In this document: positions 18,756-29,352 of the stretch, in pieces | How positions within the stretch are numbered: the stretch's first letter is position 1 | Layout: every line of letters starts with the position of its first letter | NCBI RefSeq assembly: GCF_000002985.6 | Contig: NC_003283.11 | Span: 7,006,001-7,070,000, forward strand | Direction of reading: 5' to 3' | Origin: Caenorhabditis elegans | Taxonomy: Eukaryota > Nematoda > Chromadorea > Rhabditida > Rhabditidae | DNA: 64,000 nucleotides | Position numbers and translations under genes: made by a program | Notes under the pieces: model-generated | Seen by the model: only the letters and a program-made list of their open reading frames with translations | What the model was told of the DNA's origin: nothing | Databases searched by the model: none

Positions 18756-21080
18756 TTATCCAGACTGAAAGGACACTTTTTGTGTTTTAGTCGTCGTTAT
18801 GCCGCTTCCCGGAATCTGGAAAAGCAAAATAGACAGATTGATTTGAAAATAAGGAAATTGGAAAACCTCTGAGTGAGCGGGGGACGACCACCTCCCCGTC
18901 CACCGTTTTGGGGGTGTGGTAGTGAATCTCTGTGGGTTTGACAGCTGAATACGACGCGGTCCTTCTAGGGTACGAGGACGATGAAATGAGCTGCTGGAGG
19001 GCCTGGAAGTCTGAATATCGGATTTAGTTGTTTGGAGAGTTTTTGAACAGATTTATTTCTGAAGTTTCATGGACTCATTTGAAAATGTAAATTTAAGATA
19101 GGGATAAGCTTGTTCAACAAAAGTAGTTTGAATTTTCTTAAAGTTCGAGTTATGTACAGGATTTCACTTGACCAGGCAAGGTTGGTTTTTTATAAAATTG
19201 TTTTTTTTTTGAGTATATCTTTCAGGTTTAAATTAACTGTACTGAATTGGTTTTTTAGAATCTAATAATATGACTGTTAGTTTTAAAGTTTACATTTAAT
19301 ATCAAACTTTCCTCTTTCTAACCTTCCGGTAATAGTATTTTCTTGGTTTGTACGTCTTGAACTTCTGTAACATTTTCACAAATAAATCTTCAAAAAGTGA
19401 CCTGAATTTGTGCATTCTGCATTCTCATCATCTCATTCATGATTCTAACGTGATCTCTCATCCAGTCATCGAATCCATCGGGTTGATACATCATCTGTGA
19501 AGTGACATGCTTAGAAAACAAAAGAGAAACATAAACACGTTTATTAGATTTCAGTGAACTTGGGAAAGTGAACGACGTTCGACGAAACACACAGAGACTA
19601 TACAAGGTGCAATAGTGACGGGTGTTAGTCTTAAGCATCATCGCCAACCTTTGATTCAGTTCCTGAAATTTGAATAGATTTAGAAGGAACCTTTAAAATT
19701 GTCACCTACCAAATGAAGTACTCGGAGCACCAAATCCCATTCCCCCGAAACCCATTCCCATGTTGTGCTGAATATTGCTCATAATCGCGTTGTGACGATC
19801 CATTGCATCCTGAATATTTGTTTCTTTTTGAAGTTCAACTAATTTATTGAAAAAGTAATATAAAACAGTAGATTTTCAATTTTTAAAATATTTTTCAAGT
19901 GTTTTCATTTTCAAAACTAAACGTAATATCGATGGGGTCGTTTATTCGTTTTTATTGAGAAAAAAAATCGAACAAACAGTCGTTGCCAACTGAGTTTGCT
20001 GCTGAAATTTCAAAAAATTCACTTAATAGGTTAATTTTGATTGCTTGTTAATATAAATGTCAATTATTGTTAACTTCTGAAAGATTTTCAAACAAAAAAA
20101 AAACAAAACAAAACCTTTTGAGCCTTCGCGATATTGCTTCTGATACTGTCACTCATTGCACTTGCCTTCGCTCTAGTCCAAAAAATAGTTGGTTATTTTA
20201 TTAGCTATTGTTTCATTTTGTTATTTACCTCAGCAATTTTTTTCGAGACATCCGCCGCACTCATTGCATTGTTGTTAATTGATGAGAAGCTCTAAAACTA
20301 ATATTACAAAGAACATTGAGTTAGTTTGAATTGGTTAGAATATTATTCAGACTGACAATGGAACTAGTGAATAGTTTTCTGTGAGTACTGTGAATTGAAA
20401 GACGGGAATTAAAGTTATTCAATGGAAAATAAACTCACTTGAGATTGTTGAGTGTCTGAAGAACCGAACGATTGGTGTCTGGAATTAATAATAATTTGGT
20501 CAATTGCCGGTGAAAAAACTGTACATTTGAAATTGTGAAGTCAAATCATATTGAGTGCAGCTCTAATAGAGGCGCACCTCTAATATTGAAAAATCAGCGT
20601 TTTTGAGAATTCTTTTAAAAAGATTATTTTCTGATTCAACAATTTTTCAAATTTCCGACTAGTTTTAAACATTTTTCAAAAATTAAACTCGGTACCAAAG
20701 CAACAAAATAACTTACTTGCTGTATGTCTGACTCCACGAGTTTGAACCTGGTTCATTTGAAGCAACAACCTCTGCATGTTCCGATCCTCCAGGAATTCTG
20801 CAGTTAACAATTAGAGAAATTCAAGCAAAATTGTTTAAGTTCTAGGAGATATCAAGAATCAAAAGTTCACAGTAGAAAGTGTGCATCAAAGTTTATCGGA
20901 AACCATTACTCACTCTTTATGATACGTTTTCTTATAGTTGTTCGGGTCTTGTCCCTGTCGTTCTTTTTCCTTCTGGTAGTCAGTACCAGTAGCAAACGAT
21001 CCAGAATTCTGAATCTCAACGGCTGCCGCCATTCCAACCATCATCAATGCCAACACTATGATTTTTCGATTGTTGTCCAT
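18756..21080 (-). CDS. Secreted Met/Gly/Gln-rich protein, unrecognised
   Basis: Minus-strand gene of about ten short exons. The first exon begins MDNNRKIIVLALMMVGMAAA, a signal peptide, and continues to a Lys-rich end. Later exons code SNEPGSNSWSQTYSK, a Ser/Gln-rich piece, then QHNMGMGFGGMGFGAP, then GFDDWMRDHVRIMNEMMRMQ, which looks like an amphipathic Met-rich helix. A basic tail follows, ending at the TAA at 18756. Two things are uncertain. The exon near 20150 only fits in frame with a poor acceptor; the better-looking one gives a stop after eight codons. The last three exons are open in two frames, the second ending at 18787. I recognise no family; an extracellular matrix or secreted structural role is a guess. 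Confidence 0.6.
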
Positions 21081-22407
21081 ATTCTGTGCAGTTACACAGT
21101 GAAAAAAGTCGGCAAATACACACAAAAAAGAAGTGAAAACGAGAGAGGCAACAAATCTCGAAATGAATCAAAAAACTGGAAGTGATAAATGGGTGATATA
21201 AATATATTCGTTCAAATGTATCAGTAAAAGCACCACTCTCTTTCTTCCCCCGCTTCCCTCCGAGAGGGGAGCCTCCACCGTTTTATGTTCAAATCGAAGA
21301 CCATCTAACCGTCATAAACACACGACACACATCCATTTCATCATTTCAAAAATTGAAGTAACACACAAAAAATTTGGGCAAAAATATCACCAACAAAGCC
21401 AACAAAATACTAGGTGGGAACAACAAGAAAACTGGTTTTTTTTCACTTCAAATTTAGTGGGATGTTGAGTTAAAGTGCGAACGAAATGGACACACAAAAA
21501 CAATAAGAAAATGACCGAATTTAAGGAATAACACGAGTAGAGTGATTCATCAGGTTTTTTAAAATAATGTATCTGATGTAACTTCGGAAGTAGGCTAAAG
21601 TTCATAAGATATCGACATTTTTTAGAATCAACTCTCACAGTTTTTTTCAATTGATTTTGAGACACAATCGCCGAAAAAGTTCAATTCAGTCTAGCTGCAG
21701 CCGTTTTTGAAGCAAAATTTGCAGAACGCATTTCACAACCGTCGAGCGAATATTTGAACATCTGCCATGTAAAGTAACCAAAAAACAATATTTTGCTACG
21801 TGTACCAAACTATTTGTTTGGCAGAAGTGGCAGAAGGATTCTCATGCAAATAGGGTGTGGGAAAAAATGAACAAAACAACAAGAAAACGTTTTTCAGGGC
21901 AAGGGAAAAGCTATTGTGATAGGAGGATATATTTCAAAAAGTGCTCAGAGTTTATCAGTCGTCAACAGTTGTTCTCTTGCTGTCAACAAACGTCATAACC
22001 TCTGAAACTTTAATACAAAAAATGAACAATAAAAAAAATGAAAACCTAAATTTTGAAAACATGATTTTTCGATTTTTGTTAAACTTCATCTTTGATTTTT
22101 TTTTATTTTACAATTAGAGGGAATTCACCGAAACATTGTACTACGTACTTTGTCTTGTGGTGTTTATGAGCTCAATACTATTCTAACTTCAAGAATAGCT
22201 ATCTCAATACTGTTGGCTCGGAAGCATTTGGAAGTGTTTATAGGAGAAAAATAACGAGTTCAGGAGAAAACTAATTTTCAATTGTTAATTAGGTCTTTAT
22301 GAGAGACTCACTAACAGTTTTAAACATCTTCCCTGAATTCAATATTTTATTAAAAGTTGAGATAAGGCATATGGCAAACAATCAAATTTAGAACTAATTA
22401 ATTGGAA
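21081..22407. other. Intergenic, promoter region of the 21080 gene
   Basis: No gene seen. A GC-richer stretch at 21230-21330, upstream of the minus-strand secreted gene, contains CCTCCGAGAGGGGAGCC and is a plausible promoter. The rest is AT-rich. Confidence 0.4.
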
Positions 22408-25400
22408 TTAAAAGAAATGTTTGGGATCCGTAGATGTTCCTTCTTCATCATCTTTCGGTGGTGATTTTGGTGGAGATTTCATTTCAAATCTTGCACGTAG
22501 ATCTTGAACCTGAAAATTGACGTTTACAAACTGATAGTTAAAAACAATTAAACCGACAATATTTGTTTTGTCCCCCTTTTTCTCGGGATCAAGTTCCCTC
22601 GTTCTTCTCTTCAATGAGCCATGCCTCGATGCAAATGGACTTGCTCTCTCTGGCCATAAATGATCATCCATTGATTCAGCTGCAGAGAGCGCTGTCCCGG
22701 AAGCGGATGGCGCCAATGACTCTTCGCTGCTTTTCGCAGTTTTCGTTGATATGTGTTCCGAGGAGTCGGAAGACTTTCGAAGAGTGATTGGAGCAGATGA
22801 AGATGGTCCCACATCATCAGATATTGGACGGGTATAAATGTGTTGAACACGTGCCAGAACACCGGTTTGTATGCCAATGTCTGACATACGCATTCGACGT
22901 TCTTCATCGAGTTCTTGAACATACACCTGAAAAAAGTGGGTTACGGAGATTTTATTTTAAAAAGGAAGAGAAGACGGTCCAGAAAATAGACAACTAAAAG
23001 CTTTTTTTTCTTGTAATTTGCTTCAATCCTCTTTGACTTCTCTCCTTTTTCTATTAAACTTGACAGTAGAAGCTTATTAGTTGAAAATGAAAGTTAATTT
23101 TTAAACATGCTCTGCAGAAAGATATGCCCATAGAAGAAGTGCTGCAATAGTGAAATAGAAGGTGCCGAGTGGTGCTGATTCACCTGAAGCCAGTCGTCTT
23201 CAATGCTTCCAGCACTTTGCTCGCACATTTCAGTGGTTGCTTGCACAGTTGAAGTGCTCATTTCAACCTTGGCTTCTATGTTCTTCTCAACCTTCTTTTT
23301 CTTTTTAAACTTGGACGTTTGGATTTTCATATCATATGATTCGGGGGAACATTGAACTGCTGATTCAGAAGCAAGACTATCTGATGATTGTTGGACACTT
23401 GAAGGTGTTTCCAGCAAGTTTTCTGATGAGATGCATTGACTTTTTCTAATCTTCTTTCTACGAGATGATCTACCGATAGCAGTTTGATCATGAGCTCTTT
23501 CTTTATCATCTTCACCTTCTTCTTGTTCCTGTCCTCTCTGTTCATCAAATTCTGGATCACCTGGCTCGCTTCCATCCTGTGTCTGAGTCTCTCCGTCCAT
23601 AACTTCTTCCCCATCTTCGCCTATCACCGGCGTATAATCAAAATCACTCCAAAGCGGTCCTGCATAATAATTACGTGAAGTTTCCTCCGGTTCAAAACAG
23701 TCCTCATCAACTTGTACTTCTTTCTCTTCAGAAGCTCCTGGCTCTGTCATTGTGAACATATTGGAGACATCTAATCTAATTGGAGAAAGATTAATGGACG
23801 AAACGTCCACTTCTATTTGACTTTCACTATCTATTTTGAGAACTGACAGCATTGAGTCGTCTTCTACCTAAACAAATTTTTTGGAAATAGGGAATCACAC
23901 GAATAAAGATTATTGGTAAATCAATTGAATTAGCATTCCAGAATACCTGACTCTTTTTGTTTTTCATTCGAACTCCTTCGGTTTGGCAAGATTTCACTTC
24001 AAGTTCAATGGAATGTTGTGTCTGAGTTTCAAATGAGATTGGCGTTGCCTGGACGTCCTTTTCTTCTATGGATAAAGCCTGAAATTTGAATAGTCAGGAA
24101 ACACGTTTGAAACATTTTTAAACAAACATATTGAGTTTCAGAATCGAAAACTTGAGCAGATTCCGATTGTGTGATTTGGTCGGTTGTTGGAACATCGCCA
24201 GCAAAAGAAACATCGTCAGTTTGAGTCTCTTGCAGTTCTGTGGATGGTTGTTCGGTTTGCGATTCTATTGTGAATATTTCTTTCTGAAACAACTGTTTTT
24301 AGTTTTATCAAAAATTATCAAGAAAAACTGGAATTGACAGGCCAACCCATAATTTGATAAGGTTTTTTTATTTCAGAATTTTTTTGTAAAAACTAATAAT
24401 AAACTTTCCAAAAATTGGTTGATTTCTCAGATTGAAATATCTCAACTAACATAAGAACAACTACCGGACCAAATTTTGTATGTGAATGTCTTATCAATTT
24501 TCGAAAAAATGTAATTTCGTGCACATCCACGAAAATCAGTTTGAAAATAATAGAATCCACCTCGTCTGTTTGCATCTCCGTGTCCCCTACACTGAGCACA
24601 TCGGTTTGAGATTCCGATGCATTTGTTATTGTCTGAAAGTATCAAAATTGTATATTTTTGATTGTTCCAACTTACCATATCAGTTTGCATTTCAATGTGG
24701 CCTACATCAACATTATCAGTTTGGGACTGCGAAACCGAAATATCCAGTTCTGTTTGAACTTCTACTTCTTCATGATTTAGCGCATCTGTTTGGCATTCGA
24801 CAAGTGAAAACTCTACAGCTCGAACTGCTTGAACTTCAACTTCCGAGCTTGTTATCAATTCTGTCTGACATATAAATGATTTTGTGGATGGTGGATCAGT
24901 TTGAGAATCAATTTCCGAAGATTTTGTTTGCTCAGTCTGTGACTCATCAGATACCAACAGTGGCTCGTCGGTTTGCATTGTTGCTACCACAACTGAAAAT
25001 AAATTGATTTTTAAAACATTGTAATTTTGAGAAGTTTCAAAACTCGCATTCTTGTTGCATTGTTTGTACTTCAGTTTCAGAAACTTGCATGGCTGTCTGA
25101 CTGGATCCTTCAGAAGTTTCAACGTCTCCAACAAAACTAACATTCTCTGTTGATGTGGCACATTCGAATGATATTACTTCAACGGTTTGACAATCCGAAT
25201 TTTTTAAGAACAGAGGCATTTCTTCATCAACGGCACTTTGTTCTTTTATGCCGTCGTGGGTATTTTGAGTTTGAAGATTTTCTTCAACAAATTTCGGTTT
25301 TTCATCAATATGGAACGATGTATGCATCGTCTGTACTCCAGTGTTGGTCATAAAGAACACTTCCTGTTTAGATTTCTTCTGTTTTTCATCTTCACCATCG

Positions 25401-28400
25401 TTTTTATGATCTTCCTCGTCACTTGAGGTGCTCGCCGACTCATATACCTTCTGCGGAATGTGGAATGTGCTGAAAAATAATGTTGTTTTTTCGTTGTTTT
25501 GCTGATTTTCCCAATAATATTAACACTTACCTGAATGTTGTCTGAGTGCTGCAGTTTTTAATAATTTCCAGCAACTTTGGAGTTGCATTATCTTGCTTGT
25601 CCAGCATGACCTTTGTTTCAGTCTGAATTCCGGCGTCTGTGGTATACAGTTCGAGTTCTTCAAGACTTTCTAACTCCTCATCTTCTGAATCCAGATGTAC
25701 TTTCTCAGCGGAAAGTGATTCGGACGCAGTGGTGAGCTCCGATGTTGGTGAAAATGATTCATGTCGTTGAACAGCTTTAGGTACTTCCTTAGGAATATCA
25801 ACAACTTTCCCGGATTCATCAACTCCGAGAGCAACTACAGAAAGATCTAAACTGATTTCAGCGACTTCCGGTTCTTTTCCAGTTTCACTATCCCAGTCAC
25901 TTTCAGAAACATTCGACACCTTACTCATTTCACTTTCTCTTCTTCTCAACTTTTGAACTGTTTCTCGAATCCCTTGTAACTGCTCATGATTTATACTGGA
26001 AAGTTTTGTCTGACATTTTCGGCTTCTTCCTTTCACATCGTATTGCGACCCACTTTCCACTGTAAATATCTCATATTGTGTAGAGCAATCCATAAGAAGG
26101 GGAGATGCTTGATTTCCGCTATTCTTCAAAAATCTCAGCTCATGCTCTCTTGTCTTCTTTGAACGAAGCTTCTTCTTTTTCTTTCTTCTCTTTTTCTCCT
26201 GTCCACTTTCAGTTTTTAGGTCATCATTTGTTTCTTGATCTTTACTTTCTTTTTCTTCACTTCTTTTCTCATCATCATTAACGCCAACTGGTTTCACATG
26301 AATAACTGTATCAGTCGAGTCCATTGATAACGATTTGCCAACTTTTATAGTCTTTGGTGTCAACTTGGATCGCTTGGAAGATGTTGGTGGGACAGGAGAA
26401 CTTCTTGCGTCGCTTGCAGCTGATTCATCATCCGTGAAGGGAGTTATTTCAATTGGTGGAGACTGTAATCCGAGCGACATCATTCCTGGATCTTCGACTT
26501 CAAATGGAAGAGGTGTTTCTTTGTATTTCGCAGAAGATTTAAGTTCACTTTCCTCATCGGATGATACATCCGAGTCATCCGAATCGTCTTCTGATTCACA
26601 TCCACTTTCTTCGTCCGAATGATCAGATAAGCCGGCTCCAATATAAATTGATGAGACTTCTGGTTGAATTCCAATACTTGTTAATCTGAAATCAATCATA
26701 CTTTACATTAATGCTTCCCGTACCAAACTTACAGAACGATTTCATATTGAGTGCCAATGTCCGCCATAACTTTCTCTGGCTCCTTGTTTTTTTCATCATC
26801 AAAATCAATGCTATAATCCGTCTGAATTCCTTCGTCAGAACTTTCCGTCTGTGTCTGTGATCCATAATCATGGAACTTTCCCATTGTGGTTCCAGCCTGT
26901 ACTTCTAGTGATACGCATGCCTGTGGTCTAGCTGTTTGAGTAACAGCTACAGTGACAGTTGGACGTGGTGTGGGTGATTGTAAAAAGTCGGTGGATTTTG
27001 ATAACGGGGTTTGAGAGAGCCTCTGTTGTTCATCAGCAAATTTTTCATCTGCCTGGAAATAAGTTCAGGTTGAATATAAGAACGTGTAATAATTTCTACT
27101 GAAATTTGGTCAAATTTTACTTCTTTTTCTATTAAAAAAATGTATTTTGTCGTCGATGACAGTTTAAAAAAACGGAAAATTGGTGTAATTTCAAATTGAG
27201 AAATTATGTTCTGGCTACTCGTTCAGTTGAGAACTCACAACTTCAATATAATCTCTAAAATCTTCTTTCGGAGCATTTGCAAAAGCTGGCATTCCGGTCT
27301 CCGGGTTGATATTTGTTAAAACCGGTGGTGGATCGATTCCCTTCTTTGAACAATCTTGTTTGAACTTATCCATAACTTTTGCTCCTTCGTTTTTACTAAT
27401 CAACGGCATCAAAAACTTTGCCCTTCCTTGAAAACCAGCCATCATAGCTGATGCAGCATTTGGGTCTCCGCTTTTCACAGCTTCCATGTACTCTGTCAAT
27501 AACTTCTGAAGTAGAGCCATATACATTTGAGCAAGTTTTTCTTGTAAGACGTCGATACAGACAGTGAGCATTGATAAACCGACAATCACAACTCCAAATG
27601 TTGCAATCATATATTCTGGATTAGCAGGTGTCACATCTCCAAGACCGATTGTTGTCAGAGAGATGAAACAAAAATAAAAACTGGTGAAAAATGTCCAGTC
27701 CTCAAAAAGACAAAACACAGCAGCCGAAAGAATAATCCAGGCAACAGTTGCAATTAGAGTCGAAAGAACTGGAGGATCCTGATGAATTTCTTCCTCTTCT
27801 TCGTCGTCTTCAGGTGTTGAATTTAACCGGTTTTCTTCCGAATTGCTAATCTGGAAAATTTTTCTTGAAATACATTTCTGAAGTTTGGAATTTTAAAAGA
27901 CAAACCGCTATACTACTTGGAGCTCCGTGTTTTGAAAGTTTCCACCTTTTCATTGTCTTGGCAAGTTTTGTGTAGCGAAGGCGCTTCTGGACTTCGTCCT
28001 GCCGAATAACTGTTATTCCCAAGCGAACACCTGAATAGTTTAATTGCACATGAGCATCGACAAGAAAACAAAAGGCTTACCAATATAAAGCGTCATATCA
28101 CTAACTCCATTCGTAATAAGTTTTATCCATTTTAACAAAAAATTGTTGAGCGAGGTGAGCATCACCAGCATGATCGGAATTCCGACAAAAGCATATACCA
28201 TTGTAGCTATCTGGCCAGCACGCGTCTTACATGCAATGTTTCCATATCCTAAAAAATGAGTATTTTGTAAATGGAATAAAAACATGAAATGCCAAACCTA
28301 TTGTTGTGAAAATAGTTCCTGCATAGAGGAAAGACATCCAAAAAGTCCATACAGTTTCAATGACAGGTTCTTCTAAGCCAATGTCCTCTTCGAACTTCAA

Positions 28401-29352
28401 AATGGCATGCTTCCATCGTTCCTCGCGATCTTCGCGGTTGTCGTAGAAAATTGCACGGAGACTGGAAAAGGTAATTACTTTAAATTTGACCTAACTTCAA
28501 CTTTCAATTTGACTCAAGCGTTATACATTGTATTATTTTTGTTACTTAATTTTTTATGAGTTCTCTACTGTCATTTTACTCACTTCAGCACCATCACTTC
28601 CCTCGCTATTTTTCTTTGATGAAATCCATCTTCTCTTGCTTCTAAATCAGTTGGAACCTGCAACAAAGAACACTCATCTCCCCATCTTCTACACATTTTT
28701 GCTCACTTCCAAGTACATGAATATATGAGCGCCAATAAATGAGTAAAGACCGATTATGATGAGTAGTTTGAAAGTGGATAACAACTTCTTGATTGGGGTG
28801 CATATGAACGAGCAGTAGTATTTTCTGGAAATAATCTTTTGAAGTTCAGAAATTCAAAAGTTTTGGTTAACCAACAGTTTTCGCTTTGAGCTAATGGCAC
28901 TTTCCTTTATGGAGGCTACGAGAGAGGTTGGACGTTCCTCTTCGAAATTGTGCATTAAATGGCATCTGAAAATTAAAAATATATAGGAATAAAAAATTCA
29001 AAAAACATTTATTACGTGGAAGAGTTGAAGCCTGCTTCCACATCATACTCCACATCGTCCGGAGGGTCGATTTCAATCGCCTGAATAATTTAGCACGTTG
29101 AAAAAAGACATCATATTTTGATCATTTATATTTAACTGTCGCTTTAAAAACTGTAATCAGAAATTTTAATGGTTGAATTTTCAGAATTTTCATATCATTC
29201 AACCTTTCCCATCAAAAATTTAAACTCAACTTAAAGTTTTGCAAATTGATGGAAGTTTAAAAACGATTTCTCAGACTCACCTGTTCTCTATTTTTCCTAA
29301 ATGCTACCGTATAGCTACTGGTATTACTGCTACTATTACGGTTAAGAAACAT
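22408..29352 (-). CDS. Two-pore-domain potassium channel (TWK) with very long QT-motif tail
   Basis: A large minus-strand gene of about 18 exons, estimated at 1500-1700 residues. The channel core is complete: first helix (LLIIIGLYSFIGAHIF), first pore TTIGYGN near 28235, second helix, third helix (LIATVAWIILSAAVFC), second pore TTIGLGD near 27650, fourth helix (GVVIVGLSMLTVCIDVL). It therefore conducts K+ as a dimer in the plasma membrane. After DYIEV at about 27236, splicing continues into roughly 1000 acidic, disordered residues. These hold about thirty IQTD, SQTD, CQTE, MQTD or TQTE motifs, with a dense run at 24440-25060. Basic KKRRKKKKK and RSSRRKKIRK patches interrupt it. The exon at 25527-26690 alone codes almost 390 residues. 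Start: ATG at 29352, the only one upstream that stays in frame. Most worm TWK channels are 400-700 residues. I cannot name the gene. Confidence 0.85.

Follow-up and report, generated by a model that had tools for sequence, protein, structure and literature searches.

A twelve-residue array of Gln-Thr motifs in the tail of a Caenorhabditis elegans K2P channel as a candidate docking strip for DLC-1

What might bind the tail of a potassium channel in which the dipeptide Gln-Thr (QT) is repeated 32 times? The question is raised by a minus-strand gene in a 64,000-nucleotide stretch of the Caenorhabditis elegans genome (NC_003283.11, positions 7,006,001 to 7,070,000; hereafter the window). The gene runs from window position 29352 to 22408 and was modelled from splice signals and reading frame as 18 exons encoding 1708 residues; all tail counts given below were taken on this model. 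Residues 1-466 (exons 1-8, 27239..29352, minus strand) comprise the core of a two-pore domain (K2P, TWK) potassium channel, matched by Pfam Ion_trans_2 in two stretches (E 1.8e-31) and carrying two selectivity filters, TTIGYGN and TTIGLGD, in one chain, a pore architecture common to the TWK channels of C. elegans. K2P channels are dimers with cytosolic N and C termini. Residues 467-1708 (exons 9-18, 22408..27052, minus strand) form a C-terminal tail of 1242 residues with 37 Q[TV] sites. The best-supported reading of this tail, judged by its sequence, is multivalent docking of DLC-1, the worm form of the dynein light chain LC8; it is favoured because of the acidic residues that follow the motifs, the lack of proline before them and, above all, a 12-residue register as in the complex of DLC-1 with SAO-1.

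QT motifs and their register

The excess of QT motifs was assessed against 2000 shuffles of the whole tail. QT occurs 32 times (shuffle mean 7.4, maximum 16), in agreement with the "about thirty" of an earlier sequence-only reading of this DNA, and the seven motifs quoted there all lie in the spliced tail (EGIQTD at Q543, CSTQTT at Q954, IDSQTD at Q1129, FICQTE at Q1141, VEVQTE at Q1178, IEMQTD at Q1201 and QETQTD at Q1249). Q[TV] is found 37 times (mean 13.1, maximum 24) and [TVIS]Q[TV] 23 times (4.3, 12). When C and M are admitted at position -1, a choice made after the sites had been seen, [TVISCM]Q[TV] is found 32 times (4.8, 13) and [TVISCM]Q[TV][DE] 18 times (1.0, 5). The same reading had put the number of [TVIS]Q[TV][DE] sites at about thirty, which was too high: the pattern matches 12 times (mean 0.9, maximum 5), or the 18 times just given with C or M at -1. 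Shuffling within 60-residue blocks gave means of 8.8 for QT, 15.0 for Q[TV], 6.1 for [TVISCM]Q[TV] and 1.3 for [TVISCM]Q[TV][DE]. Neither QT nor Q[TV] occurs in the 466-residue channel part.

Of the 32 [TVISCM]Q[TV] sites, 18 have an acidic residue at +2, where 6.6 would be expected. The five positions before Q (-5 to -1) in the 37 Q[TV] sites, 185 residues in all, hold no proline, against about 8 expected from its 4.3% share of the tail; a proline-free stretch fits the need of a bound strand. Proline and the residue at -1 are reported over all 37 sites because -1 statistics within the 32-site class would be circular. Hydrophobic residues occupy -6 in 17 of the 32 anchor sites (6.9 expected) and +6 in 14 of them. 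Within the 12-residue array described below these are largely one and the same residue, which might touch neighbouring LC8 dimers.

The earlier reading did not mention the main regularity, in which sites recur roughly every 12 residues. It extends over window positions 24200..25114 (minus strand, parts of exons 11-14), with anchors at Q1082, 1093, 1105, 1117, 1129, 1141, 1153 (VQA), 1166, 1178, 1189, 1201, 1213, 1225, 1237 and 1249, that is, 13 to 15 anchors counted from Q1105 or from Q1082 to Q1249. Eleven of the 14 gaps are exactly 12 residues, the others being 11, 13 and 11, and each unit can be laid out as an 8-residue motif followed by a 4-residue linker. From Q1105 to Q1249, QT is followed by D or E at 12 of 13 anchors, the remaining one being VQA. 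Among the 16 Q[TV] sites of residues 1080-1250, a set that includes Q1086 and Q1120 and leaves out the VQA at 1153, ten pairs lie at distance 12 against 1.3 (1.32) for random placement (maximum 7 in 20,000 placements), two at distance 11 and none at 13. The limits 1080-1250 were chosen after the data had been seen, as were the inclusion of Q1153 (VQA) among the anchors and the omission of Q1086 (MQV) and Q1120 (EQTK). Over the whole tail, 12 is still the commonest Q[TV] distance (11 pairs), followed by 24 (7 pairs). The limits that the sequence-only reading gave for the dense block, 24440-25060, were misplaced, given that 24284-24560 is intron 13.

The proposed DLC-1 rod and the evidence against it

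It is likely, in our judgement, that the tail acts as a polybivalent docking strip for DLC-1, on which consecutive dimers zip two K2P tails into a stiff rod; both the binding of DLC-1 and the formation of the rod are proposed from the protein sequence. In a K2P dimer, two identical cytosolic tails would lie side by side in parallel, and each DLC-1 dimer would hold corresponding motifs of the two tails as β-strands. The anchor spacing of about 12 residues would allow neighbouring DLC-1 dimers to bind adjacent to each other and in register, so that the flexible tail pair would become a rigid rod, built like a ladder, beneath the channel. LC8 is reported to bind two chains in register (PMC12017986), and cooperative zipping should therefore be expected of a client that is already dimeric and has linkers of nearly uniform length. 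Full loading would put 13-15 DLC-1 dimers on the array, with further dimers on the scattered sites that flank it, and the rod may tune the stability, clustering, cytoskeleton spacing or gating of the channel, as suggested by LC8 on Kir4.1.

A bolder claim, on which our confidence is evenly divided, is that this would be the longest ordered LC8 ladder known, in which 13-15 DLC-1 dimers follow one another at a nearly constant pitch of 12 residues, with more than 10 scattered candidate sites in addition and DLC-1 serving as a stoichiometric structural subunit that sets channel spacing, clustering or gating independently of dynein. Fully extended, such a ladder is estimated at about 50-60 nm. For comparison, the 11 verified LC8 sites of human ASCIZ were described as "the most by far" (PMC5963919, 2018), and a later account gives "as many as 11" (PMC12017986, 2025).

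The individual sites were scored with a matrix built from 35 published binder peptides and tested against 29 non-binders. Binder motifs that recur (MUC4, WWC3) contributed one entry each, and four "weak" binders were counted as binders. The non-binders were 29 of the 43 rows of Tables 1 and 2 of PMC6607443; the 14 omitted rows had no usable Q anchor or were duplicates, with the exception of DDX1, dropped without good reason although it contains a TQT. Proven sites can score low on this matrix: the dASCIZ (Drosophila ASCIZ) sites, which were not part of it, score 3.7-20.2 with three below 5, and the crystal-proven SAO-1 sites score 6.7 (CQT) and 2.2 (VAT). In the tail, 25 of the 37 Q[TV] sites reach at least the weakest verified dASCIZ score and 19 of 37 at least that of the SAO-1 CQT. 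When the seven dASCIZ peptides were added to the matrix, 12 windows (one TQY) exceeded the 10th percentile of binders (0.96 in shuffled tails, maximum 5), 27 windows (21 Q[TV], 2 TQY, 4 neither) reached a score of 5 (4.6, maximum 12) and 34 reached a score of 3 (9.5, maximum 19).

Several observations weigh against the docking strip. The matrix separates binders from non-binders only fairly (AUC, the area under the curve, 0.84), 8 tail windows (one TQY) score above the 10th percentile of left-out binders (0.85 in shuffled tails, maximum 5), and only 14 of the 37 Q[TV] sites score above the non-binder median of 8.1. M stands at -1 in 4 of the 37 sites and C in 5, and neither is found there in any of the 35 binder peptides, though C is in SAO-1. 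V or L, reported as disfavoured for LC8 binding at -4 (PMC6607443), occupies that position in 4 of the 15 array units (Q1105, 1166, 1189 and 1249). Direct likenesses to known sites (KSFICQTE 6/8 and SLVECQTD 5/8 identical to SAO-1 KSVECQTE, MDCSTQYE 6/8 to AMOT, TNTGVQTM 5/8 to LCA5 and YGSQTQTE 5/8 to Kir4.1) speak for docking but are in part expected by chance, each being the best of 18 reference peptides. The donor of exon 11 (24993..25101, minus strand) is ambiguous: a GC donor (AAT|gcgagt, intron from 25047) and a weak GT donor (CCA|gtcaga, intron from 25101) both keep the frame, and the latter would drop Q1082, Q1086 and Q1093 from the tail. Finally, the most alike pair of units (Q1129 and Q1237) is 72% identical over 36 nt, which may be a remaining trace of duplication.

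Because proven dASCIZ and SAO-1 sites also score low, sequence scores alone decide neither way. The motif-score comparison that the earlier reading called for was accordingly mixed, with 25 of 37 sites scoring no lower than the weakest dASCIZ site but 14 of 37 above the non-binder median. Its proposal of a multivalent LC8 dock is supported by the +2 residues, the proline pattern and the register, but some thirty LC8 sites were an overstatement, with only 8-12 windows reaching the 10th percentile of binders. The dASCIZ peptides bind at 7-20 uM, one being too weak to measure, and the whole chain at 1.4 uM (PMC5963919); weak sites acting through avidity are normal in multivalent clients. A profile of the array searched against the Protein Data Bank (PDB) gave one match, Radial spoke protein 3 (RSP3; 9e5c), which was not significant (E 8.3) and fell at HIEVQTE and QQETQTD; RSP3 is listed among LC8 clients in PMC10046861. 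When the array was submitted to the same database as a single query, the seven matches, to arsenate reductases and a designed protein, were due to chance.

The most serious alternative, possible though clearly less probable than the rod, is a heterogeneous and mostly under-occupied LC8 binder that acts as a DLC-1 sensor or sink like ASCIZ. The weak individual scores, the number of Q[TV] sites and, outside the array, gaps that vary between long and short are consistent with it. Linkers of 6 and 9 residues are reported to give homogeneous complexes, those of 3, 30 and 41 residues (dASCIZ) heterogeneous ones, and those of 12 and 16 possibly heterogeneous ones (PMC10046861); the 4-residue linker of the array is nearer to the short heterogeneous case than to the homogeneous range of 6-9. 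A partly loaded, off-register state may be regarded as a real alternative because this linker is not among the lengths examined there. Against under-occupancy, the linker is near-constant within the array, and SAO-1 and LCA5, at the same spacing, bind two LC8 dimers or molecules (PMC9630320, PMC9481538).

A merely accidental likeness to LC8 sites, in units of 12 residues that in fact serve a different binding partner or adopt their own periodic fold, is rather improbable. The hydrophobic residues at -6 and an E at -2 in 12 of 32 sites (3.9 expected) go beyond the consensus given in PMC3078936, yet E at -2 also occurs in dASCIZ QT1 and QT2 (PMC5963919) and in SAO-1. Furthermore, a charge-hydropathy plot (based on composition only) places the tail among disordered chains, and LC8-like sites such as SDEGIQTD, TDAGIQTE and KNCSTQTT stand off register.

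A link between the tail and cytoplasmic dynein for transport of the channel is more doubtful still. LC8 is a dynein subunit, but clients and dynein compete for the same LC8 grooves, and the link is less likely because no groove is left for the dynein intermediate chain once a DLC-1 dimer carries two tails. The view of LC8 as a dynein cargo adaptor is reported as superseded by that of a dimerisation hub, now generally accepted (PMC6607443), and the Kir4.1 precedent favours a structural, auxiliary-subunit role over dynein transport. The sequence-only reading had suggested that LC8 either zips channel dimers together or ties them to dynein; the former fits K2P dimers and parallel, in-register binding by LC8, whereas the latter is the weaker, the grooves being filled.

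Neutral repeat expansion without function is very improbable. Low-complexity tails expand readily, and one unit pair keeps the 72% identity given above; nevertheless, QT[DE] and the spacing are retained in units whose flanks and synonymous sites are close to random. At the DNA level the flanks of the units share 33% identity, compared with 28% (s.d. 9%) in in-frame pieces drawn at random. Codon identity at agreeing flank residues is 0.43 against 0.42 expected from usage (112 comparisons), that of the anchor Thr is 0.308 against 0.314, and that of the anchor Gln is 0.637 against 0.555, a value reached in 26% of draws. Recent tandem duplication of DNA was rejected, since synonymous codons in the repeats look randomised and Tandem Repeats Finder (TRF) returned four rows over 22400-27100, none with a 36-nt period. 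The near-random flanks and codons therefore indicate units that are old or convergent, and the anchor and the 12-residue pitch look as if held by selection. A cluster of SQ/TQ sites for ATM/ATR-type kinases is hardly credible: S or T precedes Q in 15 of the 37 Q[TV] sites and another residue in 22, and [ST]Q (26, against a shuffle mean of 18.5 and a maximum of 30 in 2000) is not clearly enriched, while QT is.

If the tail is indeed a DLC-1 docking strip, its site count would go beyond the 11 of ASCIZ and the record would pass from a transcription factor to a membrane channel. It would provide a natural, near-uniform 12-residue array for studying how LC8 stacks into rods, and would add K2P channels to Kir4.1 among the channels that have LC8 as an auxiliary protein. 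The animal would be one that allows editing of anchors, spacing and dlc-1 and observation of the channel's position in living tissue, and the dynein question would become testable as whether the channel follows DLC-1 or dynein. Among the matches listed from the open-access literature (subscription journals, other preprints and WormBase being outside the search), none links a TWK or K2P channel with LC8 or DLC-1 by its title or the start of its abstract; PMC10943081 (glia; dlc-1, twk) and PMC5095125 (a calcium-channel review; LC8, dynein light chain, K2P) hold both kinds of term.

Gene structure and other features of the tail

Exons 1-8 of the model lie at 29352-29281, 29080-29016, 28824-28707, 28657-28584, 28461-28298, 28248-28081, 28030-27906 and 27850-27239, exons 9-13 at 27052-26733, 26685-25531, 25469-25048, 24992-24676 and 24632-24561, and exons 14-18 at 24283-24128, 24078-23947, 23867-23184, 22926-22558 and 22509-22408 (all minus strand). 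An automatic gene model differed in that exon 14 was missing, exon 11 stopped at 25102, exon 13 continued to 24465 and exons 17 and 18 were left unsplit. Exon 8 (end 27239, GTT|gtgagt) joins exon 9 (27052, atttccag|GCA) in phase 0, so that the tail is in frame with the channel. The 186-nt intron between them was scanned for AATAAA and none was found; an AATAAA starts 57 nt past the stop codon of the tail. Given the phase-0 junction and the AATAAA-free intron, there is no sign in the sequence that favours a separate gene for the tail, though one is possible. Readthrough beyond the exon 8 donor would give ...YIEVVSSQLNE (adding VSSQLNE) with a stop near 27215 (27215-27239), and a short, tail-less channel isoform produced by intron retention is possible. 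The worm is reported to have 46 K2P genes (PMC11811770). Identity with TWK-43 was rejected, given that TWK-43 carries Met at TM2.6 (PMC6377628) and the present channel Leu (GIPIML).

For exon 11, a further GT donor at 25043 breaks the frame, and two GTs between the candidate donors were discarded by hand arithmetic only. Intron 17 (22510-22557) may be unreal, as the frame is also open through it and its donor was picked to keep frame; the uncertainty touches no motif. Exons 13-16 are in phase 0 with lengths that are multiples of three, and so are 17 and 18 in the chosen model (22408-24632), such that each of exons 13-18 could be skipped without a frame shift (17 and 18 as modelled). Exon 13 (24561..24632, minus strand; 72 nt, phase 0) encodes 24 residues, or two unit lengths, and bears two array units with anchors Q1213 and Q1225.

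LC8-like sites outside the array are also on the minus strand. HDYGSQTQ and YGSQTQTE (Q532, Q534) and SDEGIQTD (Q543) lie at 26816..26872, followed at 25536..25640 by TDAGIQTE (Q927) and KNCSTQTT (Q954), the top-scoring window (14.7). A looser cluster comes after the array at 23862..24169 (AQV Q1272, TQY Q1279, VQA Q1290, TQT Q1299, CQT Q1312 and SQV Q1324, the last straddling the junction of exons 15 and 16), and the final site, SDIGIQTG (Q1572, score 9.4), is at 22861..22884. The 207-residue array, used as a protein query against the genome (100,286,401 bases, 7 contigs), gave four matches at E up to 10, all from this gene; the search was limited by a loose first look and does not prove the array unique.

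Three stretches of the tail are strongly basic (KKRRKKKKK at residues 737-745, SRRKKIRK at 1459-1466 and KFKKKKK at 1510-1516, in exons 10 and 16) and the remaining tail is acidic; these stretches could contact membrane phosphoinositides or tubulin. Residues 593-620 (exon 10) form a Ser/Asp/Glu cluster, SDHSDEESGCESEDDSDDSDVSSDEESE, that resembles a run of casein kinase 2 sites. Downstream of the gene, at 20910-21167 on the minus strand, a short open frame with a signal-peptide-like start, MDNNRKIIVLALMMVGMAAAVE, is possibly a gene for a small secreted peptide.

Comparison with known LC8 systems

Among the closest parallels is the complex of SAO-1 with DLC-1 in the same animal. The DLC-1 encoded in this genome matches chain A of PDB 7y8w at 89 of 89 residues, and the SAO-1 segment matches chain E at 24 of 24 aligned ones; at the DLC-1 site the genome reads ANVATDQVVMKSVECQTE. 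Worm DLC-1 and SAO-1 182-205 are reported to form a 2:4 complex with anchors VAT 187-189 and CQT 199-201 (PMC9630320, PDB 7Y8W), and SAO-1 182-226 binds DLC-1 with a Kd of 0.5 uM (PMC9630320). The same LC8 protein thus engages two anchors exactly 12 residues apart, as are those of the tail array, and the VEC-Q-T-acidic core around the SAO-1 CQT anchor recurs at tail Q1166. In contrast to the tail, SAO-1 has two sites only and is a GYF-domain protein, not a channel.

LCA5 (lebercilin) shares the 12-residue spacing, with sites KNAACQSD at 317-324 and CTKGVQTM at 329-336. Both bind in the protein, although KNAACQSD failed to bind as an isolated peptide, and in the authors' model the 4-residue gap is enough for two LC8 molecules (PMC9481538). 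The GVQTM core is common to LCA5 and tail Q1004; unlike the tail, LCA5 is a coiled-coil ciliary protein with two sites. In solved tandem LC8 complexes the motifs are reported to be separated by 3-9 residues and the topology to be parallel (PMC12797016). The tandem motifs of yeast Nup159 form a stiff, beads-on-a-string stack with Dyn2 (LC8; PMC12017986). Nup159 resembles the tail in its tandem motifs but has five sites and belongs to the nuclear pore.

The tail also resembles ASCIZ, whose long, disordered C-terminal region has many individually weak QT sites (11 verified in human, 7 in Drosophila) with IETQT and METQT cores like those of the tail. ASCIZ is a transcription factor, however, with irregular spacing and dynamic partial occupancy, unlike the array. 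Kir4.1 provides the functional precedent, as a potassium channel with LC8 as an auxiliary protein that affects stability and gating. LC8 copurifies with it at stoichiometric levels and alters its response to PIP2, and without the LC8 site the channel is more prone to degradation (PMC11999606). Its site, YSQTTQTE, may be set beside YGSQTQTE of the tail. Kir4.1 differs in being a tetramer of another channel family with one N-terminal site per subunit, compared with the long C-terminal array of the K2P channel described here.

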